Shown: positions 6,503 through 37,649 of the stretch, one piece after another
Position numbering within the stretch: the stretch's first letter is position 1
Layout: every line of letters starts with the position of its first letter
Source: Pseudomonadota bacterium
GTDB lineage: Bacteria; Pseudomonadota; Gammaproteobacteria; Burkholderiales; Burkholderiaceae_C
DNA: 38,110 bases
Assembly: GCA_018242005.1 (NCBI GenBank)
Contig: JAFECU010000311.1
Location: 1 to 38,110, forward strand
Direction of reading: 5' to 3'
Translations under genes and position numbers: made by a program
The notes under the pieces: generated by a model
Seen by the model: the letters and a program-made list of their open reading frames with translations, nothing else
Told to the model about the DNA's origin: nothing
The model's database searches: none

Positions 6503-7569
6503 CACCCACCATCGTAAAAACCATTCTTTTGATAGCTGCCAGCGCTTTATCCATCAGTGCTGCGGCCAAAAACACTCATAAAAAGCACGCCGCCAAGCCG
6601 GCGCCCGCCTACCACTACGCCCAACGCACGGAAGCCATGGAGTTTGCGGACGACGTGGCCGAGCGCCGCGGCCTGGACCGCGAATGGGTACGCCAGGCCG
6701 TGGGCCAGGCCCGGCTGCTGCGCGAGGTGCCGCGCCTGGTATTGCCGCCGCCCAAGACCCAGCCCAAGAACAGGGCCGCCTATCGCGCGCGCTTCGTCGA
6801 GCCCGTGCGCATTGGCGCCGGCCTGCGCTTCTGGCAGGACAACGCCGAGGCCCTGGCACGGGCCGAACGCGAATACGGCGTGCCGGCCGAGATCATCGTC
6901 GGCATCATCGGCGTGGAAACGCTCTACGGCCAGCACATGGGCGGCTACCGCGTGATCGACGCGCTGGCCACCTTGAGCTTTGACTTCCCCGACGCCCACC
7001 CGCGCGCGGCCGAACGGCGCGCCTTTTTCCGCGGCGAGCTGGAGCAGTTTCTGACCCTCATGGACCGCACCGGCATGGACCCGCACGATCCGCGCGGCAG
7101 CTACGCCGGCGCCATGGGCATGGGCCAGTTCATGCCATCGAGCTGGACGCGCTGGGCCGTGGACTTCGACGGCGACGGCCGCATCGACCTGTGGCGCAGC
7201 CCGCAGGACGCCATAGGCTCGGTGGCCAACTACTTCGTGGGCCATGGCTGGATCGCCGGCATGCCCACGCATTACGCCGTGGCGTTCGACGCCGAACGGC
7301 TGCAGCTCGACACGCTGCTCGCGCCCGACATACTGCCGACCTTCAGCGCGGCCCGCATGGCTGCCCTGGGCGCGCAGGTGCAGGGCGAAGGCGCCCGGCA
7401 CCAGGGCCCGCTGGCGCTGGTGGAGCTGCAGAACGGCACGGAGCCTCCCAGCTACGTGGCCGGCACCGAGAATTTCTACGCCGTCACGCGCTACAACTGG
7501 TCGAGCTACTACGCCATGGCGGTGATCGAGCTGGGGCGGGCGGTGGCGGCGGCGCGGCAGGCACCCTGA
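6499..7569 (+). CDS. mltB: Lytic murein transglycosylase B
   Basis: Soluble or membrane-associated lytic transglycosylase that cleaves peptidoglycan to 1,6-anhydromuropeptides. The 356-residue protein has the MltB core: AEIIVGIIGVETLYGQHMGG with catalytic Glu140, GSYAGAMGMGQFMPSSW, and the EF-hand-like DFDGDGRIDLW segment next to DAIGSVANYFVGHGW. It ends without the extra peptidoglycan-binding domain found in some homologues. The N-terminus TILLIAASALSISAAAK looks like a signal peptide but has no lipobox cysteine, and its codons coincide with a copy of a dispersed palindromic repeat. The ATG overlaps the preceding TGA, so it is likely coupled to the transglutaminase gene. Confidence 0.94.
   Translation: MTPTIVKTILLIAASALSISAAAKNTHKKHAAKPAPAYHYAQRTEAMEFADDVAERRGLDREWVRQAVGQARLLREVPRLVLPPPKTQPKNRAAYRARFVEPVRIGAGLRFWQDNAEALARAEREYGVPAEIIVGIIGVETLYGQHMGGYRVIDALATLSFDFPDAHPRAAERRAFFRGELEQFLTLMDRTGMDPHDPRGSYAGAMGMGQFMPSSWTRWAVDFDGDGRIDLWRSPQDAIGSVANYFVGHGWIAGMPTHYAVAFDAERLQLDTLLAPDILPTFSAARMAALGAQVQGEGARHQGPLALVELQNGTEPPSYVAGTENFYAVTRYNWSSYYAMAVIELGRAVAAARQAP
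6527..6573 (+). repeat. Dispersed palindromic repeat inside mltB (signal peptide)
   Basis: Contains ATAGCTGCCAGCGCTT followed by a short loop, AGTGCT, and GGCCAAAAA. It is AT-richer than its surroundings and supplies codons for LIAASALSISAAAK, the hydrophobic core and cleavage region of the MltB signal peptide. The same peptide register is seen in the DUF934 gene copy at 37257. Confidence 0.75.
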
Positions 7570-7672
7570 GACCCAGGGGCGATGCGGTCTTCATTGATGA
7601 CACGCAAGTTGCCCCAACCGGGTATCGCGCGGGTCGCGGTAGCCGGCAAACGAGAAGGCTCAAAGCCAGACC

Positions 7673-8611
7673 ATGCCAAACACCCGCGACGTACTGACCC
7701 CCGACAACCTCGCCATGCTGCAACGCATTGCCGAAACCGGCAGCTTTGCCGCGGCCGCGCGCCAGCTGGGCCTGGTGCCCAGCGCCTTGACCTATCGCGT
7801 ACGCCAGATCGAGGACGCGCTCGACGCGCTGCTGTTCGACCGCAGCGCGCGCCAGGCCCGTCCCACCGATGCCGGCCTGGAGCTGCTGCGCGAGGGCCGG
7901 CGCCTGCTGGAGGACGTGGACGCCATAGCCAACCGCGTGCGCCGCGTGGCCACGGGCTGGGAGCCGCAGCTGACCCTGTCGGTGGACGGCATCATCTCGC
8001 CCACCACCATTCTGGATCTTGTGGAGGCCTTTTACGCCATGGCGCCGCCCACGCGGCTCAAGTGGCGCGACGGCATCCTGAGCGGCACGGCCGAGGCACT
8101 GGCATCGGGCCACGCCGATCTGGCCTTGGGCGTGACCGCGGGTGCTTCCAACGTGGCGGGGCTGCAGTCGGCTCCGCTGGGGGATTTGCGCTTCATCTTC
8201 GTCGTGGCCCCACACCACCCGCTGGCGCGCGCGCCCGAGCCCATCAGTGACGCCACGCTGCGCGCGCACCGCATGATCGCCGTGGCCGACTCGGCACTGC
8301 GCGGCAACGTGACCATAGGCATCCTGGCCGGCCAGGACGTATTCACCGTGGACAACATGCGCGCCAAGATTCAGGCCCAGCTGCGCGGCCTGGGCGGCGG
8401 CTTCCTGCCCGAGCCCATGGTGCGCCCTTACATCGAGTCCGGCCACCTGGTGGCGCGCGCCGTGGCACGCCCGGAACGCACCATCGCCATGTGCTATCAA
8501 TGGGGCGGCCCCGGCGCGGCCACACCCGGGCGGGCGCTGCAATGGTGGCTGGCGCAGCTTCAAAGCCAGGCCACGCGGCGTGCGCTGCTGGAAAATCACC
8601 ATCATTTCTGA
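7673..8611 (+). CDS. LysR-family transcriptional regulator
   Basis: LTTR of 312 residues. The N-terminal winged helix-turn-helix spans about residues 10-65 (LAMLQRIAETGSFAAAARQLG, then SALTYRVRQIEDAL) and is followed by the long linker helix and a periplasmic-binding-like effector domain of two lobes from about residue 95. The effector is not evident. The next gene in the same direction, an FAD-dependent oxidoreductase, begins 83 bases later and is a possible but unproven target. It ends with ENHHHF. No divergent partner gene is present, which is unusual for this family and gives no hint of regulon. Confidence 0.93.
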   Translation: MPNTRDVLTPDNLAMLQRIAETGSFAAAARQLGLVPSALTYRVRQIEDALDALLFDRSARQARPTDAGLELLREGRRLLEDVDAIANRVRRVATGWEPQLTLSVDGIISPTTILDLVEAFYAMAPPTRLKWRDGILSGTAEALASGHADLALGVTAGASNVAGLQSAPLGDLRFIFVVAPHHPLARAPEPISDATLRAHRMIAVADSALRGNVTIGILAGQDVFTVDNMRAKIQAQLRGLGGGFLPEPMVRPYIESGHLVARAVARPERTIAMCYQWGGPGAATPGRALQWWLAQLQSQATRRALLENHHHF

Positions 8612-8694
8612 CTGCGCCGACTGCGCACCGCCTATGGCGCGTGTAGAGTCATTGGTATTTCACGCCTGCCTTCACACTCTCACGAAAGCCCGCC

Positions 8695-9789
8695 ATGACA
8701 GCACCGCGTCCCCGCTCAAGCAAACGGTTGAAACACAGCGCGTCGGACGGCCCGGCGCGCCGCTTTGCCATCGTCGGTGCCGGCATGGCCGGCATCGCCT
8801 GCGCGCGCACGCTGGCCCAGGCGGGACACAGCGTGACCGTGTTCGAGAAGGCGCCGCACAGTGGCGGACGCACGGCGGCGCTTGACTCGCCGTTTGGCAG
8901 CTTTGATACCGGCGCGCAGTACTTCACGGTGCGCGATGCGCGCTTTCAGCAGGCCCTGGACACCGTCCCCGGCCTGTGCCGCGCCTGGAGCGCCACCACC
9001 ATACGGGTGCTGGATGCCGCCGGCCGCGTGGCCACGGCCACGCGCACGCCCGGCGAGGCGCACTGGGTTGCCGCCCCGACCATGGACGCGCTGGTCCAGG
9101 CCTGGGCCCAGCCGCTGCAAGCCGACAACCGGCTGCACACGCACACCGCCGTCACGCGCATAGAGCGCGACCCCATGCGCACCACGGCCTGGCAGCTGCA
9201 TTGCGAGACGCTGGGCGGCGACACCCATTTGCACGGCGGCTTCGATGCCGTGCTGCTGACTCAACCGGCGCCCCTGAGCCAAGCGCTGCTGCTGCAGTCG
9301 GGCGTCACCCCGCCCTGGGGCGACGCCATGGCGGGAATCGATATCGCCCCCTGCTGGACGCTGATGTTGGCCTTTGCCCACGCCGTGCACCCTGGTCTGA
9401 CCACGCTGGGCCCGCAATGGAACGCGGCACGCAGCACACACCACCGCATCGCCTGGCTGGCGCGCGAGTCCAGCAAACCCGGGCGCAAGCAGATAGAGCG
9501 CTGGACGGTGCAGGCCAGCCCCGCCTGGTCGCTGGAACACCTGAACGACGATGCCGCCCGCGTGCAGGGCAAGCTCATCAAGGCCTTTACCGAGGTCACC
9601 GGCATACGTGCCACGCCCACACATGCCGAGCTGCGCCGCTGGCGCTTCGCCCAGACACAAAAACCCCTGGGCCAGAGCTTTCTGTGGGACGCCGCCACGG
9701 GGCTGGGCGCCTGCGGCGACTGGTGCCTGGGCCATAGGCTGGAGGACGCCTTCGTCTCCGGCCTGGAGCTGGCCCTGGCCGCTGCATGA
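8695..9789 (+). CDS. FAD/NAD(P)-binding oxidoreductase, renalase/amine-oxidase-like
   Basis: A 364-residue flavoprotein. The Rossmann dinucleotide motif is [18 protein letters not shown] near residues 23-40, followed by [12 protein letters not shown] (ribose-binding acidic residue and GG motif), and a C-terminal FAD-contact segment [18 protein letters not shown]. The layout matches the renalase-like NAD(P)/FAD-dependent group of bacteria rather than a secreted oxidase; no signal peptide is present and the basic N-terminus is ordinary. The substrate is unknown. The TGA overlaps the gluQRS start (ATGA), so the two genes are probably cotranscribed and coupled. Confidence 0.88.
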
Positions 9790-10745
9790 GCCGTGCGGCA
9801 GGCTACGTAGGCCGGTTCGCCCCCTCCCCCACAGGGCCGCTGCACGCCGGCTCGCTCGTCGCCGCCCTGGCCAGCTGGCTGGACGCCCGCGCGGCCGGTG
9901 GACGTTGGCTGGTGCGCATCGAGGACGTGGACCTGCCGCGCTGCCCCCCCGGTGCGGCCGAACGCATTCTGGCCCAGCTGGCCGCCTGCGGCCTGCTGCC
10001 GGACGACGCCCCGCTCTACCAATCGAGCCGCGGCGCGCGCTACCAGCAGGCCCTGGATCAGCTGCGCGAACGACACCTGGCCTACCCCTGCGCCTGCACC
10101 CGGCGCGACATCGAAGAAGCACTGGCCGCCCAGGGCCTGAAGCACGAGCGCCATGTGGAGCGTCCCTACCCCGGCACCTGCCGCCACGGTCTGCAGGGCC
10201 GGCCACCGCGCGCCTGGCGTTTCAATGCCACGCAATATCAGTCAAGCATGCATCCATCCGTTGATGGCAACGCGCCATCCGCTTCATTTTCAATAGTGAA
10301 TAGCGGCATCCAGTGGATCGACCGGCGCCTGGGCCCGCAGCACCAGGACGTGGCCCGCCAGGTGGGCGACTTCGTGCTGCACCGTGCCGACGGCCTGTGG
10401 GCCTACCAGCTGGCCGTGGTGGTGGACGATGCCGACCAGGCCGTGACCCATGTGGTGCGCGGCGAAGACCTGGCGGACAACACGCCGCGCCAGATCCTGC
10501 TGCAGTCGGCCCTGGGGCTGGCCACGCCGCGCTACCTGCACACGCCGCTGGTGCGCGCGGCCGATGGCGAAAAGCTCTCCAAGCAGCATGGAGCGCCGGC
10601 CATCGACGACAGCCGGCCCGTGCAGGCGCTGGCCGACGCCGCCCACGTGCTGGGCCTGCCACCCGCGAGAAATGAAAACAATCTCTCCGAGGCGCTGGCG
10701 CTGTGGGTCACCGCCTGGGCACGAAACTACAATCCGCCGCTGTGA
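9786..10745 (+). CDS. gluQRS: Glutamyl-Q tRNA(Asp) synthetase
   Basis: GluQRS activates glutamate and attaches it to queuosine in the anticodon of tRNA(Asp). The 319-residue protein has the truncated GluRS architecture without anticodon-binding domain: [15 protein letters not shown] (HIGH-type motif), the zinc site with Cys residues in [11 protein letters not shown] and YPGTCRHG, and a KMSKS-type motif EKLSKQHG. Between WRFN and IQWIDRRLG there is an AT-rich insertion of around 15-20 residues (about 10230-10305) that the Escherichia coli protein lacks. Overlaps the genes before (ATGA) and after (GTGA), forming a tight unit with the FAD protein and trmB. Confidence 0.93.
10728..10733 (+). promoter_or_regulatory. 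-10-like hexamer 8 nt before the trmB GTG
   Basis: TACAAT within the 3' end of gluQRS ends 8 bases before the GTG at 10742, and no Shine-Dalgarno sequence intervenes. A transcript starting here would be leaderless or nearly so, giving trmB its own expression besides readthrough. Confidence 0.4.
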
Positions 10746-11464
10746 CCGAAACGCTTTTCCACCAAGACCCCCATCCCGGCGCGCCCGCGGCCGTCGCCCA
10801 CCCGAAGGGCATCAAGAGCTATGTGCGCCGCGCCGGCCGCACCACCAGCGGCCAGGCCAAGGCCCTGGAAGACCTGGGCCCGCGCTATGTGCTGGACTAT
10901 GCGGCCGCCCCGCTCGACACGACTGCCGCCTTTGGCCGCACCGCCCCGCTGGTGCTGGAGATCGGTTTCGGCATGGGTGAGGCCACGGCCCATATCGCCG
11001 GAGTGCGTCCCGGAGACAACTTCCTGTGCTGCGAGGTGCACGAGCCCGGCGTGGGCGCGCTGCTCAAGCGCATCGGCGAGCAGGGCCTGACAAACATCCG
11101 CATCCTGCAGCACGACGCCGTGGAGGTGTTGGAGCACATGCTCGCGCCCGAGTCGCTGACCGGCGTGCACATCTTCTTTCCCGACCCCTGGCACAAGAAG
11201 CGCCACAACAAGCGCCGCCTGATCCAGCCGCCACTCGTGGCCAGGCTGGCCAGCCGCCTCAAGCCCGGCGGCTACATCCACTGCGCGACCGACTGGCAGC
11301 CTTATGCCGAGCAGATGCTGCAAGTGCTGTCGGCCGAGCCGCAGCTGGCCAACACGGCCCCCGGCTACGCCCCCAAACCCGACTACCGGCCCCTGACCAA
11401 GTTCGAGAACCGCGGCCTGCGCCTGGGCCATGGCGTGTGGGACCTGGTGTTCACGCGCCGCTGA
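10742..11464 (+). CDS. trmB: tRNA (guanine-N7)-methyltransferase
   Basis: TrmB forms m7G46 in the tRNA variable loop using S-adenosylmethionine. The 240-residue protein shows the SAM site [12 protein letters not shown], the acidic [10 protein letters not shown] loop, the signature [16 protein letters not shown], and the C-terminal [17 protein letters not shown] segment. The N-terminal [13 protein letters not shown] region is also typical. The chosen start is the GTG that overlaps the gluQRS stop (GTGA). An ATG 39 bases earlier would extend the protein by residues unlike the family. Translation could be by coupling or from a leaderless message. Confidence 0.95.
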
Positions 11465-11490
11465 CCTTCCCATTCACCGAGCCCCAAGCG

Positions 11491-12495
11491 ATGAAGCCCC
11501 TGCTGCAAAACCTGGCCGAAATGACCGCCCACCGCGATCACCTGCGGCTGGAGGTGTCGGTGCTGTCCACGCTGCTCAAGCTGGGCCACGTCGTGCAGGT
11601 GCGTGCGCTGGAGCTGTTCGAGCAGGACGGCGCCGCCATGCTGCGCCCGCGCAGCTGGAGCCAGGACGGGCAGATCGTCTCCAGCGAACACGATGCAGCC
11701 GGCGACACGCAGCGTCAGCCACTGGCGCGCGAGCCCGAACTGGCCCAATGCATCGCCGCCGGCGGCGAGAGTGCCGCACGCTCCACGCCCGGCCGGCACA
11801 CCCTGTGGCTGCCCGTGTGGCAGGCGGGACGCGCCACGACCTGCCTGGAAATCACCCAGCCGCGTGCCTTCAAGAAGCACCAGCACGACGTCATCAAGGG
11901 CGTATTCCTCGTCTACCAGAACTACCAGAACCTGCTGGACTACAGCGAGCGCGACGCACTCACGGGCCTGCTCAACCGCAAGACCTTCGAGGAGCAGTTC
12001 GCGCGCCAGGCCAGTGCAAATCCCGGCGCGGACGACAATGCCGACACGCCGCGACAGTGGCTGGCGGCCATCGACATCGACCACTTCAAGGGGGTCAACG
12101 ACCGCTTCGGCCATCTGTTTGGCGACGAGGTGCTGATCCTGGTGGCCAACCTGCTGCGCACGCAGTTCAAGAGCCAGGACCGCATCTTCCGCTTCGGCGG
12201 CGAGGAATTCGTGGTGCTGCTTCGCTCCATCACCCTGCCCCAGACCCGCCAGGCACTGGAGCGTCTGCGCCTGGCCATACAGTCCCACGTCTTTCCCCAG
12301 ATCGGGCAGGTCACCGTGAGCATAGGCTTCGTCGCCCTGCATGCCGGCTCGCCTGTGGAGATCCTGGGGCGCGCCGACCAGGCGCTCTACCACGCCAAGG
12401 AAAGCGGCCGCAACCGGGTGTGCTTCTACGATGACGTGATGCACAGCGGCGCGCTGCAGGTCAAGGTGGCCCACGACGAGGTCGAGCTGTTCTAG
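11491..12495 (+). CDS. GGDEF domain protein (diguanylate cyclase)
   Basis: A 334-residue cytoplasmic protein with no membrane segments. Residues 1-150 form a GAF-like or otherwise unassigned sensory region (HRDHLRLEVSVLSTLLKLG onwards). The GGDEF domain begins at SERDALTGLLNRKTFEE, includes the metal-site AAIDIDHFKGVND and the active-site motif RFGGEEF, and ends with ADQALYHAKESGRN. All residues needed for c-di-GMP synthesis appear present. The inhibitory I-site position reads KSQD instead of RxxD, so product feedback is probably weak or absent. Begins 26 bases after trmB and may share its transcript; no EAL domain or partner phosphodiesterase is nearby. Confidence 0.93.
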   Translation: MKPLLQNLAEMTAHRDHLRLEVSVLSTLLKLGHVVQVRALELFEQDGAAMLRPRSWSQDGQIVSSEHDAAGDTQRQPLAREPELAQCIAAGGESAARSTPGRHTLWLPVWQAGRATTCLEITQPRAFKKHQHDVIKGVFLVYQNYQNLLDYSERDALTGLLNRKTFEEQFARQASANPGADDNADTPRQWLAAIDIDHFKGVNDRFGHLFGDEVLILVANLLRTQFKSQDRIFRFGGEEFVVLLRSITLPQTRQALERLRLAIQSHVFPQIGQVTVSIGFVALHAGSPVEILGRADQALYHAKESGRNRVCFYDDVMHSGALQVKVAHDEVELF

Positions 12496-12619
12496 GACGC
12501 CATCGGACTTGGAGATCGCCGGCTGCAAGTCAATCGCGTCGGCTCGGTTTTCACCGTCTCACCGTGTCGTGACCGCCTTTTTGCCCAATAGCTCGGCCAT
12601 TGGGCCGACGCTCCGGCAA

Positions 12620-12800
12620 GGCTCAAGCAGCGATATCTGTTGACTCGTCATCCCAGCGTGCGCGATCTACGCGCAGCCCGTCATACCCGCGAAGGCGGGG
12701 ATCCGGGTGCGACCCATGCCGTTGATTCATTGTTGCTGTGGATCCCGCCTTCGCGGGGATGACGGCGGCTTGCCGTTCAACAGGATTTGCTACCTGAGCC
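12620..12800 (+). mobile_element. MITE-like palindromic element, copy 1
   Basis: About 181 bases bounded by imperfect terminal inverted repeats: GGCTCAAGCAGCGATATC at the left and the complement of the right end, GGCTCAGGTAGCAAATCC, with GTTGA following on both. Inside is CGCGATCTACGCGCAGCCCG and two opposed REP-like arms (CCCGCGAAGGCGGGGATCC and GGATCCCGCCTTCGCGGGG). It shares its ends and core with the element at 15796-15917. No transposase is encoded. No target-site duplication is obvious. Confidence 0.65.
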
Positions 12801-12923
12801 TCAGCCAACACCGGCCGAGCTGGGTTTGATTCTGGCTACGACACTCTTTGAGTGCGCCGCCGGCGCTCCAGGTCCGACGGCCTCACGGGCGCGGTGGAGC
12901 GTCGAGCGTTGAGGGTTTTGCGT

Positions 12924-12948
12924 GGAGCCGGCAGGATGCCGGCGCTCC
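12924..12948 (-). repeat. REP-like hairpin just after the alaS stop codon
   Basis: GCCGGC, a five-base loop, then GCCGGC, with flanking GGAG/CTCC, lies 3-28 bases beyond the alaS TAG on the minus strand. A partial relative (GCCGGCGCTCC) is at 12857-12867. There is no T-run, so it looks more like a REP element than an intrinsic terminator, though it could stabilise the alaS 3' end. Confidence 0.55.
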
Positions 12949-12951
12949 GCA

Positions 12952-15573
<2,622 letters not shown>

Positions 15574-15795
15574 GGGTCTACTCAAGGATTGGAAGGCCTG
15601 CCGCCGGCGGACAGGCGAACCTGGCATTTTAGGGGGTTTCCTCAGCGGCCCTGCGGTTGCACCGAACACAGGTGCCCGCCCGGTGGCCGCGAACACAAAC
15701 CGCAACCAGATGGCATCCCCGGTCTGGTCCCCTGCGGCTCGCTGGGCCAGCCGCAACCCATCGGCCGTCAAACGGGTGGTGCCGCTGATCGTGCA
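15574..15795. other. alaS upstream region, possible gene remnant and promoter
   Basis: On the minus strand TAAAAT (15631-15626) is a good -10 hexamer for alaS. The region also stays open in the alaS frame and encodes a plausible-looking stretch ([20 protein letters not shown], then [19 protein letters not shown]) that belongs to no family I recognise and has no good start, since it runs into the MITE-like element at 15796. It may be a remnant truncated by that element, or chance GC-rich coding potential. Confidence 0.35.
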
Positions 15796-15917
15796 ATTCA
15801 AGTAGCGATATCCATTGATTCGTCCTTCCAGAGCACGCGATCTACGCGCAGCCCGTCATCCCCGCCTTCGCGGGGATGACGGCGGTGAACTCATCATCAG
15901 AAATCGCTACTTGAGCC
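15796..15917 (+). mobile_element. MITE-like palindromic element, copy 2
   Basis: About 122 bases, related to copy 1 and in the same orientation. The ends are inverted: TTCAAGTAGCGAT at the left and ATCGCTACTTGA at the right. The core CGCGATCTACGCGCAGCCCG is shared exactly. The centre is a perfect 13-bp stem CCGTCATCCCCGC / GCGGGGATGACGG around CTTC (15853-15882). Relative to copy 1 it lacks about 59 internal bases. It sits between the divergent alaS and pseudouridine synthase genes and may carry a strong RNA hairpin into either leader. Confidence 0.65.
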
Positions 15918-15984
15918 TTTCCCAAACCCTGCCGCCGCAAGTGGTACGGCGCCATAATCTCGCCCCTTTTGCCCCCGAGTCTTC

Positions 15985-16905: not shown

Positions 16906-16909
16906 CGCC

Positions 16910-19684: not shown

Positions 19685-21022
19685 CTAATAGTTTGCTTTT
19701 GACAACAAATGTAGCACAGCCTGGGCCGTCGCCCGGGCGGCGCCGCGGTGCTCCTGGGTGAAGGCCTGACAGCGTGCGGCCAGCGCGGCGCGGCGCGGTG
19801 CGTCCTGCGCCAGCGTGGTCGCAAGATCCACCCCCGCGGCCATGTCGGCCACGCGCTCGGCAGCGCCGGCGGCTATGGCCAGCTGCGCGGCCTCGGCAAA
19901 GTTGAAGGTGTGCGGCCCCATGACTACGGGGCAGCCGCAGGCCGCGGCCTCGATCAGGTTCTGCCCACCCAGCGGCGCGAAGCTGCCGCCCAGCAGCGCC
20001 ACTTGGGCCATGCCGTAGTACAGCGCCATCTCGCCCAGCGAGTCGCCCAGCCAGACATCGGCCGCCTGCGGGCCGTCGCCCCATAGGCTGCGCCGCGACA
20101 CACTGAGGCCCGCGGCCCGGCACAGGCGCTCGGCCTCGTCAAAGCGCTGCGGGTGGCGCGGCACGAGCAGCCATTGCACAGGCATGGCTTCTACGGTTTT
20201 TGTAGCTGCCAGCACTTGGCTGGCGGGTGCTGGAGCCCAATTTTGCTTGATAACGTCGAGCCACATCGCCTCCTCGCCCTCGCGCGTGCTGGCCAGCACC
20301 ACCACGGGCCTTGGCGTGGCATCGCGCCACACGCGGCCCCGGGCCAGCTGCACGGGCGATGGTTCCACGTCGAACTTGAGATTGCCAAACACCCCGGCCA
20401 CGGGCGCGCCCAGGTCACGCAGGCGCGCCGCGTCCTGCTCGGTCTGCGCCCAGACGGCCGCCAGCCCCGCGTAGGCCGGGCGCGACAGCCAGGCCAGGCG
20501 GCGCGCGCCGGCATGTGATTTTTCATTCAGGCGCGCATTGGCCAGCGCCAGTGGCACGCCCTGAGCGCGGCAGCCTGCCGCCAGGTTGGGCCAGATTTCG
20601 GTTTCCATGAGAATGCCGATGGCCGGACGGAATTGGCGCAGAAAGCGCCGCACTGCGCCGGGCGTGTCCCAGGGCTGCCAGACCTGCATGTCGCTCGCCT
20701 GCAGGAGCTTTTCGCCCTCGGCCCGGCCCGTGGCCGTGCCGTTGGTGAGCAGCAGACGCATGCCGGGCAGCTGGGCGCGCAGCTCCTTGAGCAGGATGGC
20801 GGCGGCGCGCGTCTCGCCCAGAGACACGGCGTGTATCCACACCAGCGGCCCGCCCTGCCCGTCCTGCCCGTCCTGCGGCGCTTGTTGGTAATGGCCAAAG
20901 CGCTCTGGCACGGCCACTGCGTAGCCGGGCTCGGTGCGTGCGCGCCGACGCAGCTTGCGCAAGAGCAGCGGCTGGGCCAGCCACAGGGCCAGGCTGTAGA
21001 GCGCGAGGGCAAGGCGCTGCAT
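19685..21022 (-). CDS. waaA: 3-deoxy-D-manno-octulosonic acid (Kdo) transferase
   Basis: WaaA transfers Kdo from CMP-Kdo to lipid IVA at the inner membrane, starting the LPS core. The 445-residue protein begins with an N-terminal membrane anchor (LALALYSLALWLAQPLLL). The general base lies in HAVSLGETRAA (Glu70). LLLTNGTATGRAEGEKL, METEIWPNL, GNLKFDVEPSP, STREGEEAMW, LLVPRHPQRF and GGSFAPLGGQNLIEAAACGCPV are all typical. Between EGEE and LVPRHP it has roughly ten residues more than the E. coli enzyme, and these coincide with a dispersed palindromic repeat. Lies 25 bases after the phosphomannomutase stop, so probably one operon. Confidence 0.95.
   Translation of the reverse strand: MQRLALALYSLALWLAQPLLLRKLRRRARTEPGYAVAVPERFGHYQQAPQDGQDGQGGPLVWIHAVSLGETRAAAILLKELRAQLPGMRLLLTNGTATGRAEGEKLLQASDMQVWQPWDTPGAVRRFLRQFRPAIGILMETEIWPNLAAGCRAQGVPLALANARLNEKSHAGARRLAWLSRPAYAGLAAVWAQTEQDAARLRDLGAPVAGVFGNLKFDVEPSPVQLARGRVWRDATPRPVVVLASTREGEEAMWLDVIKQNWAPAPASQVLAATKTVEAMPVQWLLVPRHPQRFDEAERLCRAAGLSVSRRSLWGDGPQAADVWLGDSLGEMALYYGMAQVALLGGSFAPLGGQNLIEAAACGCPVVMGPHTFNFAEAAQLAIAAGAAERVADMAAGVDLATTLAQDAPRRAALAARCQAFTQEHRGAARATAQAVLHLLSKANY
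20195..20245 (+). repeat. Dispersed palindromic repeat inside waaA
   Basis: On the plus strand it reads TTTTTGTAGCTGCCAGCACTTGG with a later GTGCTGGAGCCCAATTTTG, matching the repeat family. The gene is on the other strand, so here the repeat is read in antisense and encodes KQNWAPAPASQVLAATKT, at WaaA residues about 257-276. This corresponds to a loop that is shorter in the E. coli protein. Confidence 0.7.
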
Positions 21023-26924: not shown

Positions 26925-26992
26925 GGCGGTGTCTCACGCCCTTGCCGGGCGCGCTCCGTACGGTGAAAGGCGCCGCGGGGGCGCCCGAAATG

Positions 26993-28395
<1,403 letters not shown>

Positions 28396-28398
28396 GCG

Positions 28399-29034: not shown

Positions 29035-29110
29035 GGCGGATGGCTGGGCAAGACAGGAGTTCACTGTAGCAGCGAGTTCCCGCGCGCCAGCGCTCCAATG
29101 GGGCGCCTGG

Positions 29111-29116
29111 GATAAT
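29111..29116 (+). promoter_or_regulatory. -10-like hexamer 9 nt before the rlhA start
   Basis: GATAAT ends 9 bases before the ATG at 29126 and no Shine-Dalgarno sequence lies between, so the mRNA would have at most a few leader bases. A -35 is not evident. Confidence 0.45.
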
Positions 29117-29125
29117 CCGCTCCCT

Positions 29126-31102: not shown

Positions 31103-31501
31103 CACAGCCTTTTCAGAACTTGCGCCCTGGCTAAAAGCACCCCAGGCACAGCACTGTAGGTGGCCTTGTAGAGGGATGCGATGCTGACGGGCAGGCGCGC
31201 GCCCCTCCCCCGCTCCATTGCCCCCCTTGGTGTCGACCGTCGTCGCCGGGACCGCGACTCTTTCCTGAGACGCCGCGTTGTGCGGCATGCTGCGCCGCCG
31301 GACAAAGGCCCCACCCGAGGCTGGCCGCAGGAACGGCGGCGAAGGGAAACTTGATAAAGTTGCGCCGATTTTTCATGGAGTGCGGCCGTTGCGCTGAATG
31401 TCAATGGAACGCATTCCGGAAGTCAATTTTTAAAACTGGAATCAATAGCATTTCAGTTTGTTATTACCAAAACACCTGAAACACACCAAGGATCTCCCGT
31501 C
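31103..31501. other. Gene-poor stretch between rlhA and yggX, possible Tat-signal remnant
   Basis: This 399-base gap contains no intact gene I can support. On the minus strand at 31376-31131 an 81-codon frame starts [20 protein letters not shown], which looks like a twin-arginine signal peptide, but the sequence after about 30 residues becomes incoherent across all frames. It could be the decayed 5' end of an exported protein gene. The last 130 bases (31370-31500) are AT-rich and should contain the yggX promoter; AAGGA lies just before its ATG. Confidence 0.4.
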
Positions 31502-31774
31502 ATGGCACGCACCGTCCACTGCATCAAGCTCGGCAAGGAAGCCGAAGGCCTCGACTTCCCCCCCTACCCTGGCGAGCTGGGCAAGCGCATTTATGAAAAC
31601 GTGAGCAAGCAGGCCTGGGGCGAATGGCTCAAGCACCAGACCATGCTGGTCAACGAGAACCGCCTGAACCTGGCCGACGCCCGCGCCCGCCAATACCTGG
31701 CCCGCCAAATGGAAAACCATTTCTTTGGCAGCGGCGCAGACGCTGCGGCGGGCTATGTCCCGCCCAGCGCGTAA
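31502..31774 (+). CDS. yggX: Probable Fe(2+)-trafficking/oxidative damage protection protein
   Basis: A 90-residue YggX protein, which protects iron-sulfur clusters and may hand on iron. Family features are [61 protein letters not shown] and the terminal [31 protein letters not shown] before the ATG gives a usable ribosome site. The last 17 codons and stop are repeated exactly 93 bases downstream in the same frame, and the same region takes part in a large inverted repeat, so the 3' end has been rearranged. It lies alone between rlhA and the channel gene. Confidence 0.95.
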
Positions 31775-31802
31775 CGCAGTGCAGCGCTGCAAGAAATGGT
31801 TT
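31715..31802. repeat. Large inverted repeat at the yggX 3' end
   Basis: AAACCATTTCTT then GCAGCG at 31715-31734 is matched by CGCTGCAAGAAATGGTTT at 31785-31802, giving 18-bp arms with a two-base bulge. The enclosed part holds two further stems (GCAGCG/CGCTGC and GGCGGG/CCCGCC). Its RNA would fold strongly over the yggX stop codon and may serve as the gene's 3' structure. Confidence 0.7.
31722..31774 (+). repeat. 53-bp direct repeat, unit 1 (yggX 3' end)
   Basis: Identical to 31815-31867. Unit 1 encodes the YggX C-terminus from FFGSG through the TAA stop. Confidence 0.85.
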
Positions 31803-31814
31803 CGCTAAAACATC

Positions 31815-31867
31815 TCTTTGGCAGCGGCGCAGACGCTGCGGCGGGCTATGTCCCGCCCAGCGCGTAA
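31815..31867 (+). repeat. 53-bp direct repeat, unit 2 (copy of yggX 3' end)
   Basis: Perfect copy of 31722-31774, displaced by 93 bases (31 codons), so it stays in the yggX frame. With its upstream bases it forms a mini frame from an ATG at 31794 that ends [17 protein letters not shown]; there is no sign it is independently translated. Confidence 0.85.
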
Positions 31868-31964
31868 GCCACAGAGTCCCACCCCAGCCCGCCCTGCCGC
31901 CACACTGCAGACGCACGAGGCGGCATCTTTTTTGCGCACCACCCACTTGAGGGAGATTCCCCAC

Positions 31965-32630
31965 GTGCTTCCTTCGGTCTCCCTGCTGGAGTCGTTCCAG
32001 GCCACGCAGATGAGCTTCATGCTCGCGATCTACCTGCTGGCCATCACGGCCGAGGCCATGTCCGGGGCCCTGGCGGCCGGGCGGCGCAACATGGACATCT
32101 TCGGCGTGTCGGTGATCGCCTTCGTCACCGCGCTGGGCGGCGGCACGATACGCGACATGGTGCTCGGCCATTACCCGCTGGGCTGGACGCAGCACCCCGA
32201 ATACGTGTACCTGGTGATCGCCGCCGGCCTGCTGACCACCGTGGTCGCGCGCTTCATGATCCACCTCAAGCGGGTGTTCCTGCTGCTCGACGCCCTGGGG
32301 CTGATCGCCTTCTCGCTCATCGGCTGCAACGTGGCGCTGGAGCTGGCCTACCCCAACGTCGTAGTCGTGATGGCCGGCATGATCACCGGCATCAGCGGCG
32401 GCATTCTGCGCGACGTGCTGTGCAACCAGGTGCCCGTGGTGTTCCGGCGCGAGCTCTACGCCAGCGTGTCCCTGGCCGTGTGCCTGCTGTTCCTCGCACT
32501 GCGCACCTGGGACGTCAACCACAACCTGACCACCGCCGTGTGCTTCGTCGGCGGGCTGGCGCTGCGGCTGGCGGCCATACGCTGGCGGTGGCGGCTACCC
32601 GTTTTCTCGTACCAGCAGCGCTGGGAATGA
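31965..32630 (+). CDS. Trimeric intracellular cation channel family protein (UPF0126)
   Basis: A 221-residue inner-membrane protein of the prokaryotic TRIC group, formerly UPF0126 (YicG-like). About seven hydrophobic helices are visible, arranged as an inverted pair of three-helix bundles. Each half has the family glycine motif: ALGGGTIRDMVLGHYPLGW and GISGGILRDVLCNQVPVVF. Bacterial members conduct K+ or Na+ in vitro; the physiological role is unclear. I chose the GTG start because GAGGGAG lies 7 bases before it; the open frame extends back into the yggX repeat, but those codons are not family-like. mnmC starts 12 bases downstream, suggesting cotranscription. Confidence 0.92.
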   Translation: MLPSVSLLESFQATQMSFMLAIYLLAITAEAMSGALAAGRRNMDIFGVSVIAFVTALGGGTIRDMVLGHYPLGWTQHPEYVYLVIAAGLLTTVVARFMIHLKRVFLLLDALGLIAFSLIGCNVALELAYPNVVVVMAGMITGISGGILRDVLCNQVPVVFRRELYASVSLAVCLLFLALRTWDVNHNLTTAVCFVGGLALRLAAIRWRWRLPVFSYQQRWE

Positions 32631-32642
32631 TGGCCTTGCCCC

Positions 32643-34514
32643 ATGTCTGATTCCGTGTCCTGGCTGCCCGACGGCACGCCGTTTAGCAACCGATTTGGCG
32701 ACCGCTACCACGGCGAGCAGGGCCTGACCCAGGCGCGCGAAGTGTTCGTGCACGGCTGCGGCCTGCCCCAGGCCTGGGCCGGCGCGCAGCAATGGCGCAT
32801 CCTGGAGACGGGCTTTGGCCTCGGGCTGAACTTTCTCACCACCTGGGCCGCCTGGCGCGCCGATCCCCAGCGCCCACGGTTGCTGCATTTCGTGTCGCTC
32901 GAGGCCTGGCCGGTCACGGCGGACGACCTGCTGCGCTCGGCCCGTCGCTATCCCGACCTGCTGCCGTTGGCGCAAGAGCTGCTCGCCCAGTACTGGGGCC
33001 TGCTGCCCGGCGTGCACCGCCTGTGGTTCGATGATGGCCGCGTGCTGCTGACGCTGTGCGTGGGTGACGCCCAATCGCTCATGCGCCAGCAGCTGTGGGA
33101 GGTCGATTCCGTCTACCTGGACGGCTTCAACCCCCAGCGCAACCCCGAGATCTGGGGCATGGAGACCCTCAAGGCCATGGCGCGCCACTGCCGCCGCGGC
33201 ACACGCCTGGCCACCTGGACGGTGGCGCGCAGCGTCATGGACGCACTCACGCAATGCGGCTTTCAGGTCAGCAAGGTGCCCGGCCTGCCCCCGAAGCGCG
33301 ACAACCTGCAGGCCGTTTTCGACCCGAACTGGCAGCCGCGCAGCCGCCGCCAGGCGCCCGAGTTTCCGCGGCCCGCGCGCTGCCTGGTGCTGGGCGCCGG
33401 CCTGGCTGGAGCCACCGCCGCGGCCAGCCTTGCGCGCCGCGGCTGGCAGGTGACGGTACTGGACGCCGCTGCCACGCCCGCAGCCGGCGCATCGGGCCTG
33501 CCCGCCGGGCTGTTTGCGCCCCACCTCTCGCCCGACGACAACCTGTTTGCCCGCGTCTCGCGCGCCGGCGTGCGCGCCATGCTGCAGCAGTCCGCCGCAC
33601 TCTTGCAGGCGGGCGTGGACTGGAACCCGGCCGGCGTGCTCGAGCGCCGCCCCGCGGGCCAGCTGGGCCTGCCCGCCGACTGGCACGACGGCCCAGGCAG
33701 CGACTGGAGCCTGCCCGCCGATGGCGCGCGCCTTGCCGCCGCCGGCCTGCCGGCCGACGCCAGCGCCTGCTGGCACGCACGCGCGGGCTGGGTGCGGCCG
33801 GCGCGCTTCATCGCCCGTCTGCTGGAGCAGCCCGGAATCACCTGGCGCCCGAACAGCGCCGTGGCCCGGCTGGTGCGCAACACCAGCGGCCTCTGGCAGG
33901 CGCTGGACCGTGACGGCAATCCGCTGGCCGAGGTCGATCTGGTGGTGCTGGCCACCGGCCCCGCCAGCAACAGCCTGCTGGCCCCGCTGGGCGTGGCGCC
34001 GCTGCCGCTGCAACCCGTGCGTGGCCAGATGTCCTGGGGACTGCAGCCCGCCGCGGCCCAGGGCCTGCCGGCCTTTGCCGTGAACGGCGGCGGCGCGCTC
34101 ATGGCCCATGTGCCCTGCGAAGAGGGGCTCGCCTGGCATATGGGCGCGACCTTCGAGCGCGATGTGGACAGGCTACCCATGACGGCCGAAGAGCAGGCCG
34201 CCGCCCACGACCACAACTGGCAGCGCCTCAAGGCCCTCGTGCCGCAGGCCGCGCCCACGCTGCGGCCGGCCTTCGAGGGCGGACAGGGCCTGCGCGCCTG
34301 GGCCGGCGTGCGCTGCACGGCGCACGACCGCATGCCCATCGTCGGCCCCATAGCGCCCGCCGCCCTGCCCGGCCTGTGGATCAGCACCGCCATGGGCGCG
34401 CGCGGCCTCACGCGTGCCGTGCTCTGCGCCGAGCTGCTGGCCGCCCGCCTCATGGGCGAACCCCTGCCCGTGGAGGCCAAGCTGGCCCATGCCATGGGCA
34501 GCGAACGGCTGTAG
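32643..34514 (+). CDS. mnmC: Bifunctional tRNA 5-methylaminomethyl-2-thiouridine biosynthesis protein
   Basis: MnmC completes mnm5s2U34 in tRNAs for Lys, Glu and Gln. The 623 residues contain both enzymes. The N-terminal methyltransferase (MnmD) has the SAM site WRILETGFGLGLNFLTTW and the acidic catalytic segment VYLDGFNPQRNPEIWG. From about residue 245 the FAD-dependent oxidase (MnmC1) begins with RCLVLGAGLAGATAAASLARR, followed by ASGLPAGLFAPHLS and ending with RCTAHDRMPIVGPIA and WISTAMGARGLTRAVL. The start gives the expected N-terminus WLPDGTPFSNRFGDRYH. The partner MnmEG genes are not in the window. Confidence 0.95.
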   Translation: MSDSVSWLPDGTPFSNRFGDRYHGEQGLTQAREVFVHGCGLPQAWAGAQQWRILETGFGLGLNFLTTWAAWRADPQRPRLLHFVSLEAWPVTADDLLRSARRYPDLLPLAQELLAQYWGLLPGVHRLWFDDGRVLLTLCVGDAQSLMRQQLWEVDSVYLDGFNPQRNPEIWGMETLKAMARHCRRGTRLATWTVARSVMDALTQCGFQVSKVPGLPPKRDNLQAVFDPNWQPRSRRQAPEFPRPARCLVLGAGLAGATAAASLARRGWQVTVLDAAATPAAGASGLPAGLFAPHLSPDDNLFARVSRAGVRAMLQQSAALLQAGVDWNPAGVLERRPAGQLGLPADWHDGPGSDWSLPADGARLAAAGLPADASACWHARAGWVRPARFIARLLEQPGITWRPNSAVARLVRNTSGLWQALDRDGNPLAEVDLVVLATGPASNSLLAPLGVAPLPLQPVRGQMSWGLQPAAAQGLPAFAVNGGGALMAHVPCEEGLAWHMGATFERDVDRLPMTAEEQAAAHDHNWQRLKALVPQAAPTLRPAFEGGQGLRAWAGVRCTAHDRMPIVGPIAPAALPGLWISTAMGARGLTRAVLCAELLAARLMGEPLPVEAKLAHAMGSERL

Positions 34515-34570
34515 CGCCCCGATAAGCAACACCCCTCGACCCCGGCGCAGGCCGCGCCAGGGCTTGTGCA

Positions 34571-34590
34571 TAAGCTTATTCGCATAAGGG
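34571..34590 (+). promoter_or_regulatory. CysB-like binding site upstream of the sulfur assimilation operon
   Basis: CTTATTCGCATAAGGG contains the inverted pair CTTAT/ATAAG and resembles half-sites bound by the LysR-type regulators CysB/Cbl. It lies in an AT-rich 128-base gap, about 55 bases before the first gene of the operon, a suitable position for activation. A promoter hexamer pair is not clear. Confidence 0.5.
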
Positions 34591-34642
34591 AAGCACAAAA
34601 CAATAGTTTGAACTCATAAGCCGCACTTCTACAGTCGCGGCC

Positions 34643-35446
34643 ATGCCTGATTTCGCCTTCATCCTCGCTGGTTTTGCCGTCGGCCTCATCGTGGGGCTGA
34701 CGGGCGTGGGTGGCGGCTCGCTGATGACGCCCATCCTGATCTTCTTCTTCGGCGTCAAACCCTACCTGGCCGTGGGCACGGACCTGCTGTTTGCGGCCTT
34801 CACCAAGTTCGGCGGCACCGTGAGCCTGGCGCGCCAGCGCCTCGTGCCCTGGCGCGTGGTGGCCCTGCTGTGCGCGGGCAGCATCCCGGCCGCGCTGGCC
34901 GCCCTGTGGGCGCTGCGCCACATGGGGCCCGACAGCGCCGCCGCCCAGCGCCTCATGACCAGCACCCTGGGCGTGGCCCTGCTGCTGACGGCCGCGGCCA
35001 CCTTCTACAAGGTGCTGGTGTTCTCGCCCGAGCGCGCGGCCGCCGAGGCCGCACGCCGCAGCGCCCAGTTTGCCCACGCCAGCGCGCCACGCCACTGGAG
35101 CCTGCCCGTACTGCTGGGCGCGGTCATCGGCCTGCTGGTCACCTTCACCTCGGTGGGCGCGGGCGCGATCGGCGTGTCGGTGCTGCTGCTCGTCTTCCCG
35201 CACCTGCCGCTGCCGCGCATCATCGCCGCCGACATTGCCTATGCCGTGCCGCTGACCCTGGTCGCGGGCCTGGGCCATGCGCCCCTGGGCTCGGCCGCCT
35301 GGCCGCCGCTTGCGCAGCTCCTCATCGGGTCGCTGCCGGGTATCCGGCTCGGCTCGCGCCTGGTCAGCCGCACACCCGAGCGCCTGATTCGCTCCATTCT
35401 TTCCGTGCTGCTCGCCTGGGCGGGCGCAAAACTTGTTCTCGTTTGA
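34643..35446 (+). CDS. TauE/SafE family sulfur-related permease
   Basis: A 267-residue inner-membrane protein (formerly DUF81) with about eight hydrophobic helices in two similar halves. The first starts ILAGFAVGLIVGLTGVGGGSLMTP and the second LLGAVIGLLVTFTSVGAGAIG, the paired glycine-rich motifs of the TauE/SafE family. Members move sulfite, sulfoacetate or related anions. Being first in an operon with sulfite reductase and cysH suggests uptake or export of an inorganic sulfur anion; the substrate and direction are inferred. It ends nine bases before the cysI start. Confidence 0.9.
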   Translation: MPDFAFILAGFAVGLIVGLTGVGGGSLMTPILIFFFGVKPYLAVGTDLLFAAFTKFGGTVSLARQRLVPWRVVALLCAGSIPAALAALWALRHMGPDSAAAQRLMTSTLGVALLLTAAATFYKVLVFSPERAAAEAARRSAQFAHASAPRHWSLPVLLGAVIGLLVTFTSVGAGAIGVSVLLLVFPHLPLPRIIAADIAYAVPLTLVAGLGHAPLGSAAWPPLAQLLIGSLPGIRLGSRLVSRTPERLIRSILSVLLAWAGAKLVLV

Positions 35447-35455
35447 TACCCCACC

Positions 35456-37234
35456 ATGTACCAATACACCGACTTCGACAAGCAATTCGTCAAGCTGCGC
35501 GCCCAGCAGTTCCGCGACCAATTGGAGCGCTGGCAGCGCGGCGAGCTCACCGACGAGCAGATGCTGCCGCTGCGCCTGCAAAACGGCTGGTACATCCAGC
35601 GCTACGCGCCCATGGCGCGCATCGCCGTACCCTATGGCGAGATCAGCAGCCTGCAGCTGCGCACGCTGGGCCGCATCGCACGCGAATACGACCAGCCCAG
35701 CCCTGAGCTGCTGGCCCACGCCCAGGCGACACAGGATGCCCTGGAAGCCAGCCAACCCGGCGCCACGCTGGCCGCCGCGCCCTTGAAGTACGGCTACGGC
35801 CACTTCAGCACGCGCACCAACTGCCAGTTCAACTGGATTCCGATCACCAAGGCCGCCGACGTGATGGATCTGCTCGCCAGCGTGCACATGCATGGCATTC
35901 AGACCAGCGGCAACGACATCCGCAACATCACCTGCGATGCGCTCGAAGGCATTGCCGAGGACGGCATCGTGGACTGCCGCCCCTTTGCCGAAATCACCCG
36001 CCAGTGGAGCTCGCTGCACCCCGAGTTCAGCTACCTGCCGCGCAAGTTCAAGATCGCCTTCAACGGCGCCGTGGAGGACCGCGCCGCCATCGGCTGGTAC
36101 GACATCGGCCTGCAGGCGCTCAAGAACGAGGCCGGTGAGGTGGGCTTCACCGTCAAGGTGGGCGGCGGCATGGGGCGCACGCCCATCGTGGGCACGGTGG
36201 TGCGCGAGTTCCTGCCCTGGGCGGAGCTGCTCAACTACATCGAGGCCATCGTGCGCGTCTACAACGGCTATGGCCGGCGCGACAACAAGTGGAAGGCGCG
36301 CATCAAGATTCTGGTCAAGAGCGAGGGCCAGGGCTTCATCGACGCGGTGGAGAAGGAATACCGCGACATCGTCGAGCTCGACGGCGCGCCGCACCGCATC
36401 ACCCAGGCCGAGCTCGATCGCGTGACCAGTCACTTCGTCGTGCCCGAGCTCAAGCCCGCCAACCTGCCCAGCAAAGTCGATCCCCAGGGCCAGCTCTACC
36501 GGCGCTGGCTGGCGCAGAACGTGCGCGGCCACCGCCTGCCGGGCATGAAGACCGTGACCCTGTCGTTCAAGCGCGTGGGCTTTGCCCCGGGCGACGCCGA
36601 CGCCGACACGCTCGACGCCCTGGCCCAGCTGGCCGAGCAGTTCAGCGCGGGCGAGGCGCGCCTGACGCACGAGCAGAACCTGCTGCTGCCCTGGGTGTTC
36701 GAGAGCGACCTGCCCGCGCTGTACGAGGCGGCGCGCAAGCTGGGGCTGGCGCAGCCCAACATTGGCCTCTTGACCGACATGATCGCCTGCCCGGGCGGGG
36801 ATTTCTGCTCGCTGGCCAATGCGCGCTCGCTGCACATTGCCGCCGCCGTGACCGAGCGCTACCAGGACCTGGACGAGCTGTTCGACATCGGCCCCATCGA
36901 CCTGCACATGAGCGGCTGCATCAACAGCTGCGGCCACCACCACAGCGGCCATATCGGCATCCTGGGCGTGGACAAGGACGGCAAGGAGTGGTACCAGATC
37001 ACGCTCGGCGGCGCCGACGGCACGGCCTTGTCCGGCCCCGCCATTGGCGGCAAGGTCGTCGGCCCGGCGTTCACCGCGGCCGAGGTGCCGGGCGTGATCG
37101 AGGCGCTGCTCGACACCTACCGCGAACTGCGCCACCCGGGCGAATTTTTCATCGACGCCCTGCGCCGCATCGGCCACGACCCCTTCAAGCAGGCCGCCAA
37201 CGCCGCGCGCCACGCCAAGGCCGAAGCCCTGTAA
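35456..37234 (+). CDS. cysI: Sulfite reductase hemoprotein (nitrite/sulfite reductase beta component)
   Basis: Siroheme and 4Fe-4S enzyme of 592 residues that reduces sulfite to sulfide for cysteine synthesis. It has the two ferredoxin-like repeats (SSLQLRTLGRIAREY onward and VTLSFKRVGFAPGDAD). Cluster and siroheme ligands are Cys445 and Cys451 (IACPGGDFCSLANA) and Cys488 and Cys492 (SGCINSCGHHHSGHIG). The siroheme-binding arginines lie in YGHFSTRTNCQFNWI and the QTSGNDIRNI segment. No CysJ flavoprotein is present beside it, so the electron donor is probably ferredoxin or another reductase encoded elsewhere. DUF934 follows after 19 bases. Confidence 0.95.
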   Translation: MYQYTDFDKQFVKLRAQQFRDQLERWQRGELTDEQMLPLRLQNGWYIQRYAPMARIAVPYGEISSLQLRTLGRIAREYDQPSPELLAHAQATQDALEASQPGATLAAAPLKYGYGHFSTRTNCQFNWIPITKAADVMDLLASVHMHGIQTSGNDIRNITCDALEGIAEDGIVDCRPFAEITRQWSSLHPEFSYLPRKFKIAFNGAVEDRAAIGWYDIGLQALKNEAGEVGFTVKVGGGMGRTPIVGTVVREFLPWAELLNYIEAIVRVYNGYGRRDNKWKARIKILVKSEGQGFIDAVEKEYRDIVELDGAPHRITQAELDRVTSHFVVPELKPANLPSKVDPQGQLYRRWLAQNVRGHRLPGMKTVTLSFKRVGFAPGDADADTLDALAQLAEQFSAGEARLTHEQNLLLPWVFESDLPALYEAARKLGLAQPNIGLLTDMIACPGGDFCSLANARSLHIAAAVTERYQDLDELFDIGPIDLHMSGCINSCGHHHSGHIGILGVDKDGKEWYQITLGGADGTALSGPAIGGKVVGPAFTAAEVPGVIEALLDTYRELRHPGEFFIDALRRIGHDPFKQAANAARHAKAEAL

Positions 37235-37253
37235 ACCTCCCCCGAGAAATACT

Positions 37254-37649
37254 ATGAAAATAATAGCTGCCAGCGCTCTACAGACAAGCGCTAGTGCCGA
37301 AAAAACCTTGCAAATTGCCAACGACGCCAACCTGGCCGATCTGGCCGCCAGCGGCGCGCTCGAAGGCGTGGAGCGCATCGAACTGCAATTCCCCAAGTTC
37401 ACCGACGGCCGCGCCTACAGCCAGGCCCTGCTGCTGCGCCGGCGCTACAAGTTCGCGGGCGACATCCGCGCCACGGGCGACGTGCTGATCGACCAGCTCG
37501 TGCACATGCACCGCAGTGGTTTTTCCAGCGCCGTGCTGGCCGAGGGCGTGGACGCGGCGGCCGCCCAGCGCCAGTTCGAGCGTTTTGCCGCCTTCTACCA
37601 GGGCGACGTGCTCGAGCCCCGCCCGCTGTTTGCCAGGGAGGCCGCATGA
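37254..37649 (+). CDS. DUF934 protein of the sulfite reductase operon
   Basis: A 131-residue soluble protein. The DUF934 core is ERIELQFPKFTDGRAYSQALLLRRRYKF, then GDIRATGDVLIDQLVHMHRSGFSS. DUF934 genes regularly sit between cysI and cysH in beta- and alphaproteobacteria; a role as an accessory or electron-transfer helper for sulfite reduction is suspected but not shown. It is shorter than many homologues of about 160 residues, and the N-terminal codons MKIIAASALQTSASAEK are provided by a copy of the dispersed palindromic repeat. The start is thus inside repeat DNA. The stop overlaps the cysH start (ATGA). Confidence 0.9.
   Translation: MKIIAASALQTSASAEKTLQIANDANLADLAASGALEGVERIELQFPKFTDGRAYSQALLLRRRYKFAGDIRATGDVLIDQLVHMHRSGFSSAVLAEGVDAAAAQRQFERFAAFYQGDVLEPRPLFAREAA
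37257..37306 (+). repeat. Dispersed palindromic repeat at the DUF934 N-terminus
   Basis: Reads AATAGCTGCCAGCGCTCTAC then AAGCGCTAGTGCCGAAAAAA, close to the copy at 6527 in the same orientation and reading register (IIAASALQTSASAEK here, LIAASALSISAAAK there). It begins immediately after the ATG. Confidence 0.78.

Follow-up and report, generated by a model that had tools for sequence, protein, structure and literature searches.

A stem-forming 68-bp element dispersed along Comamonadaceae chromosomes, a possible recognition sequence of the DNA-uptake type

The window that we analysed, a 38,110-nt stretch of Pseudomonadota DNA (contig JAFECU010000311.1 of assembly GCA_018242005.1), contains five copies of a palindromic ~68 bp element that recurs along chromosomes of the Comamonadaceae, mostly between genes and at some sites within conserved coding sequences that it appears to have recoded in place. 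We propose that this family uses the element as a recognition sequence along the whole chromosome, most likely one of the DNA-uptake type, a proposal that we hold tentatively and at somewhat less than even confidence. It is favoured because the pattern matches that of uptake sequences, the motif being family-wide, strand-free, evenly spaced, preferentially intergenic, recoded in place within genes and conserved site by site, and because the available passages of PMC4212676 report transformability and selective DNA binding.

Abundance, placement and conservation of the element

The five places in the window share the consensus RCTAYTnAATTGATAGCTGCCAGCGCTTn7AAGCGCTGGAGGCCAATTTGACTTGAAAT. The initial annotation had put the unit at roughly 50 bases; we measure ~68 bp, with relative entropy near zero in the flanks and a steep change at both edges. 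The unit is AT-richer than the genome, its half-sites are symmetric, and its information peaks lie approximately one helical turn apart. Among 528 copies, stem pairs carried 238 Watson-Crick double changes (154 expected) and 120 other double changes (99 expected), the expected values assuming independence such that copy subfamilies could mimic part of the signal; stem pairing therefore seems to matter somewhat, with a possible contribution from subfamilies. Literature searches on the sequence itself, on Comamonadaceae uptake sequences and on interspersed or palindromic repeats found no published description of the element.

To count copies, we used a covariance model trained on 82 copies from the source genome, including three of the four strong copies in the window (the copy at 20185 was not among them). 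This model matched the source genome at least 150 times (all 150 scored candidates were hits, and one place was matched on each strand), and a pattern scan of the same genome yielded 98 matches over the two strands, compared with none for the reversed pattern. In 800 kb sampled without bias from a congener, G005, 114 copies scored above 30 bits, against a maximum of 3.5 bits in reversed DNA, and places scoring between background and element were rare (nine at 15-30 bits). Column-permuted profiles, a harsher control, gave a score of 23.1 bits in one trial out of ten, and the working cut-off was therefore placed at ~30 bits. Extrapolation from G005 gives ~550 copies per 3.84 Mb genome, or about one per 7 kb, in agreement with the earlier suggestion of hundreds per genome.

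Placement was assessed with gene calls from our own codon-usage caller, which mis-called one locus (L111, where the copy is antisense in dapF). Although genes make up 89% of the G005 DNA, 77 of the 114 copies are intergenic, 15 lie partly in genes and 22 lie wholly within them (12 sense and 10 antisense); in G000, a congener of G005 for which the sample was pattern-seeded, 37 of 172 places fall wholly within called genes. Intergenic gaps of at least 50 bp in G005 held a copy in 23 of 59 cases when the flanking genes converge, in 53 of 246 when they are in tandem, and in 5 of 83 when they diverge, and copies in tandem gaps were oriented with the genes 30 times and opposite to them 21 times. Density is 11-18 copies per 100 kb. 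The two strands are used equally (58/58 in the 800 kb that begin at dnaA), which speaks against a replication-oriented motif resembling KOPS or Chi. In two of the three stretches examined, spacing is more regular than expected by chance: the coefficient of variation (CV) of spacing in G005 is 0.68, compared with 0.95 +/- 0.08 in simulations that held gap type constant and allowed each gap a single copy (none of 1000 gave so low a value), and the CV is also low in stretch C2 of G016, a genome from another genus (p = 0.012 against plain random placement). Near gene starts, as at L015, L067 and L070, several copies supply by eye a ribosome-binding site resembling AGGAGT, which lies 5-10 bases ahead of an ATG and comes from the opposite strand of the element's left end.

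At stable orthologous sites, the motif positions are held constant and the loop and spacer positions drift. Thirty-one G000 sites mapped to the G005 stretch; two were set aside, both lacking the element and having a flank with only 59-63% identity, and the element was present in both genomes at all 29 retained sites. Across these 29 pairs AGCT is 100% identical, CGCTT 83-97% and TTT 93-97%, the five columns 3' of AGCT are 34-69% identical and the loop 55-72%, and flank bins are mostly at 81-90%. Between G005 and G016 (~82% DNA identity), 17 of 19 G005 sites are common, as are 25 of 31 G016 sites, five of those 25 being weak in G005 (17-25 bits). Intergenic sites without the element often hold other repeats.

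The element is essentially confined to the Comamonadaceae. It was found in all eight genomes of the source genus and in nine of 16 other genera of the family (seven with at least 67 hits, G012 with six and G022 with one; the remaining seven had no hit), and in none of 16 other families of the order. Under stricter filters, a class-wide sample of 143 genomes returned the source genome and one 30.4-bit match, from a genome with 6% contamination; one further family member in that sample had no match. A pattern scan of named genomes matched at least 80 records; the named genera among the matches listed are Acidovorax, Simplicispira, Giesbergeria, Comamonas, Diaphorobacter, Paenacidovorax, Paracidovorax, Extensimonas, Ottowia, Polaromonas and Rhodoferax, together with one Rubrivivax metagenome-assembled genome (MAG) and several MAGs named to family or higher rank only. 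These matches include records of A. temperans and A. facilis.

Few plasmids have a match to the consensus, and a profile scan of 181 kb of Comamonadaceae plasmid DNA found three places; of the four pieces scanned, two had been picked for a hit. Between G005 and G016, unaligned DNA, which includes rearranged core, holds 26 copies in 219 kb (0.118/kb) and aligned DNA 83 in 434 kb (0.191/kb; p = 0.018). On the E. coli plasmid pG5A4Y217 (L405), two DUF1010 coding sequences (2334-2651 and 1156-1446) carry the element at 62.5 and 59.2 bits; they sit between integron resistance cassettes, and the Pfam DUF1010 match begins at the start of the element. This arrangement suggests that the cassettes are of Comamonadaceae origin and that DUF1010 is in part the motif in translated form. 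As with these two proteins, what is annotated in these genomes as a peptide family or a gene start may be a translated DNA motif.

Copies within genes: reading frame, recoding and insertion

All five copies first reported in the window are real, four of them strong (45-55 bits by the covariance model). Copy 1 (6515..6585, plus strand, 45.3 bits) is in sense at the 5' end of a gene for an MltB-like transglycosylase SLT_2 domain protein (6499..7569, plus strand; PF13406, E = 1.8e-90). It encodes KTILLIAASALSISAAAKN, which from its composition looks like the signal peptide of this protein, and the element is at this site in all eight genus genomes (50-77 bits by position weight matrix, with peptides of the form LIA..ALS.SA.AK). 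Copy 2 (20185..20255, plus strand, 51.4 bits) is antisense within waaA/kdtA, the gene for 3-deoxy-D-manno-octulosonic-acid transferase (WaaA; 19685..21022, minus strand; PF04413, E = 1.4e-60), and encodes VIKQNWAPAPASQVLAATKTVE in a WaaA loop of variable length; by eye, the alignment shows element-like sequence here in all eight genus genomes. Copy 3 (28113..28183, plus strand, 53.1 bits) is intergenic, with minus-strand genes at 26993-28123 and 28177-28395 on either side. Copy 4 (37246..37316, plus strand, 55 bits) follows a gene ending at 37234 and is either the leader of a DUF934 gene (37254..37649, plus strand; PF06073) or its first residues (MKIIAASALQTSASAEK). Its coding status is uncertain because it is coding only if translation begins at the ATG at 37254, the domain starting at residue 20 of that reading frame, and not at 37308, where the gene caller places the start. 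Copy 5 (4359..4429, minus strand), between genes at 3394-4350 and 4448-6502, scores only 16.5 bits (E = 0.004); at this site four of the eight genus genomes score 43-59 bits, the source genome 27 and another 18, one has other DNA instead and one has almost no spacer. Given the strong scores at the orthologous site, copy 5 is a decayed true copy. Three of the five copies had been placed inside genes; this is firm for copies 1 and 2 and uncertain for copy 4, and copies 3 and 5 are intergenic.

Other repeats and matches also occur in the window. A 23.8-bit profile match on the minus strand (10232-10302, in the gene at 9786-10745) scores no higher than the permuted control range and is unproven. 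A second dispersed repeat, built around CCCGCCTTCGCGGGGATGACGG, is present in direct and inverted orientation at 12623-12817 and 15798-15934; words of this type occupy some sites without the element, and among the 10-mers of G005 the related words GTCATCCCCG and CGTCATCCCC show the strongest over-representation. A 61-bp direct repeat pair (31714-31774 and 31807-31867) is 97% identical over copies 93 bp apart.

In-gene copies are fitted to the reading frame. Among 54 such copies from G000 and G005, 25 of 28 antisense copies use a single frame, which is open in the consensus, and the 26 sense copies fall mainly into two frames (10 and 14 copies). Sense frame 0 would read TAG, and the T of this codon, kept in 160 of 192 intergenic copies, has been lost in all ten frame-0 copies (p = 6e-8); the TGA that frame 1 would meet occurs in 48 of 192 intergenic copies and in none of the 14 frame-1 copies (p = 0.04). 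The initial description of a frame-compatible palindromic repeat that encodes peptide segments is thus borne out. The frame-1 peptide, (L)IAASAL.ISA.A, which resembles a signal peptide and may act as one, forms the SLT_2 protein start in 8/8 genus genomes. In the source genome, the paralogues L030 and L033 (the latter with FAD-linked oxidase and CCG domains) carry the element at identical codons (RNQELPAL...), and the copy was therefore retained through duplication.

The annotation had likened these copies to Rickettsia palindromic elements (RPEs), which insert in frame into genes. Frame compatibility holds, as above; insertion, judged by comparing coding copies with their orthologues, does not hold as a general rule. 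We tested 17 of ~60 in-gene copies against relatives that are element-free or score weakly, a gap test of the kind with which Redfield (2006) showed that the uptake sequences of Haemophilus (Pasteurellaceae) are not insertions (in the available part of PMC1626085); comparisons with solved structures were limited to recognised conserved enzymes, which favours alignable sites. Protein length was essentially unchanged at 11 sites, partially changed or variable at four, and different by an element-length gap at two. AroE and DapF both have mostly 22 residues in the interval with or without the element, native WPL..A residues being common to both states in DapF; compared with distant solved homologues, AroE is five residues longer and DapF 11 longer, not 22. 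ProA, LpxB and MCC-beta show no gap relative to a solved homologue, and LipB differs by one residue. Length was likewise essentially unchanged in a metallo-beta-lactamase-fold gene, at G005 645727, in a thioredoxin-TPR gene (a single relative, 51% flank identity) and, between G016 and G005, in a MurE-like gene (42.7 vs 17.8 bits) and at the 3' end of another gene (31.5 vs 20.0 bits). The MurE label, like other names lacking a search match, is presumed from sequence motifs.

At the partial or variable sites, the WaaA loop of element-free relatives is anywhere between 5 and 27 residues long, ThiL is 7 shorter, DapE lacks 8 residues within the element and 4 next to it, and the SelO homologue is 3 longer. 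The two element-length gaps are at G005 67949 (one alignment only, with 51% flank identity) and in RecQ, where the gain is clear, at 102 bp. Nothing lies between YFGE.SEP and CGNCDNC in 14 of the 30 RecQ orthologues listed, and several other genera (L438-L449) have a different repeat-like linker (SAAGPPQGGH.PLGGQRGHEVPSVGA) exactly at the position of the G000 and G005 element; this interval would seem to be a hotspot for in-frame repeats. No target-site duplication was found, direct flank repeats of 3-8 bp being within the shuffled range, and no terminal inverted repeats were seen. Together, the comparisons show that most of the copies tested in conserved genes came about with no change in length, through recoding of existing codons in whichever frame is open in the motif. 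The gap tests speak against plain RPE-like insertion as the general rule.

Uptake sequence, protein-binding site or old mobile repeat

If the element is an uptake-type recognition sequence, cells of the family would bind and import DNA bearing the motif, and recombination of the imported fragments would then spread it in place and keep its copies uniform. A putative DNA-binding protein, sited at the type IV pilus or close to it, would read the paired stem and sequence blocks. Intergenic copies, which escape coding constraint, are the best matches to the motif, and within genes it settles where the protein tolerates the encoded peptide, as in signal peptides, loops and helices. According to the passages of PMC4212676 available to us, natural transformation occurs in A. 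temperans, A. facilis and V. eiseniae, V. eiseniae pilus mutants lose uptake, and competition data suggest selective DNA binding ahead of uptake, no sequence being named in those passages. A more specific form of the proposal, which we advance with still more reserve, is that the Comamonadaceae are a third family with their own uptake sequence, a stem-forming, multi-block tag of 68 bp, longer than any known, that would spread by transformation, be kept at about one copy per 7 kb and have recoded core enzymes and a signal peptide. An uptake tag would account for the report of selective DNA binding in Verminephrobacter, and self-recognition in transformation would become testable in a family besides the Pasteurellaceae and Neisseriaceae.

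Several observations weigh against an uptake function. The element is far longer and rarer than known uptake sequences, and none of its 9- or 10-mers is among the listed over-represented words of G005; the absence of such a k-mer core speaks against a simple short-core uptake sequence. Competence genes do not track the element, because ComEC is present in 36 of 40 relatives, element-bearing and element-free alike, and a correlation with competence genes is thus non-discriminating. A. temperans took up no DNA of other Acidovorax species (available passages of PMC4212676); other Acidovorax also bear the motif, which therefore cannot alone explain this barrier. No copy was found on a V. eiseniae plasmid (the plasmid only), spacing in stretch C5 of G016 was not significantly even (p = 0.14 against plain random placement), and RecQ shows a clear element-length gain. 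Finally, column sharing alone cannot separate uptake from another DNA-binding role.

That other role could be as the binding site of a nucleoid, segregation or repair protein, or another chromosome-organising protein, with selection keeping a site every ~7 kb. Even spacing, strand symmetry and per-site conservation are all consistent with such a site, as are the symmetric half-sites with information peaks one helical turn apart, the avoidance of divergent promoter gaps, and the scarcity of copies on plasmids. We nevertheless consider it unlikely, if a serious contender, for it needs separate selection on several hundred sites, even antisense in conserved enzymes, and the loss of the element from several genera (seven of 16 without a hit) is easier to understand for a dispensable uptake system. 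Should the element not serve uptake, it would still be a family-wide motif that reshapes conserved enzymes without breaking them, and its per-site conservation would call for a binding protein.

An old mobile repeat, similar to repetitive extragenic palindromic (REP) sequences or miniature inverted-repeat transposable elements (MITEs) and in part to RPEs, might instead have inserted into intergenic DNA and tolerant protein sites and since become fixed. Sharp edges on both sides, a hairpin with compensated pair changes, the element-length gain in RecQ, unit-like gain and loss in gaps, and copies on a few plasmids and in integron cassettes all point in this direction. The lack of length change at 11 of the 17 in-gene sites does not, and neither do the missing terminal inverted repeats and target duplications, the conservation of motif positions in old copies, or the absence of an empty orthologous site among the 29 congeneric pairs; 50,697 phage records likewise gave no match to the consensus, by an insensitive blastn search. 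An old mobile origin consequently strikes us as improbable, though as serious a contender as the protein-binding site, and the lack of target duplications and of empty sites in those pairs speaks against a freshly mobile MITE.

An RNA hairpin or transcription terminator, as the compensated stem changes, one-sided T run and preference for convergent gaps might suggest, is very unlikely given that tandem gaps hold copies in either orientation (30 with the genes, 21 against), and given the shortness of the T run, the many antisense in-gene copies and the copies at gene starts. The nearly free orientation speaks against an intrinsic terminator, and so does an Rfam search of nine sources (E up to 1) against a known RNA family, its one match being below the gathering score.

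Comparison with known repeats and uptake sequences

Among described systems, the BRE repeats of Betaproteobacteria are also short and dispersed, with some coding copies, and are, in the available part of PMC3110155, ~90 bp long, 69% GC, often in tandem, present in at most 29 copies and found also in Bordetella. The element is 68 bp long, AT-richer, present in hundreds of copies and family-confined except for one weak match, and is set apart from BRE by description, the sequences being unaligned. REP sequences and MITEs resemble it in copy number, hairpin and preference for convergent gaps, and it differs from them in that no inverted terminal repeats or target duplications were found and a fifth of its copies lie wholly in genes. 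The RPEs are likewise small palindromic repeats found in frame within unrelated genes, but they are ~150 bp long and inserted into open reading frames as fusions (from the portion of PMC10969869 available), whereas the element mostly adds no residues; their hosts are Rickettsiales, and those of the element Comamonadaceae.

The uptake signal sequences (USS) of Pasteurellaceae and DNA uptake sequences (DUS) of Neisseriaceae have a 9-12 bp core at a density near one per kb, in contrast to the 68 bp, the one copy per 7 kb, the paired stem and the lack of a dominant short core described here. In other respects they are alike: on the evidence of the available sections of PMC1626085 and PMC2397512, USS and DUS are also family-wide, number hundreds to thousands of copies, have no strand bias, are spaced more regularly than random and are preferentially non-coding with many coding copies, those within genes not being insertions, and the blocks of the USS are arranged at helical-turn spacing.

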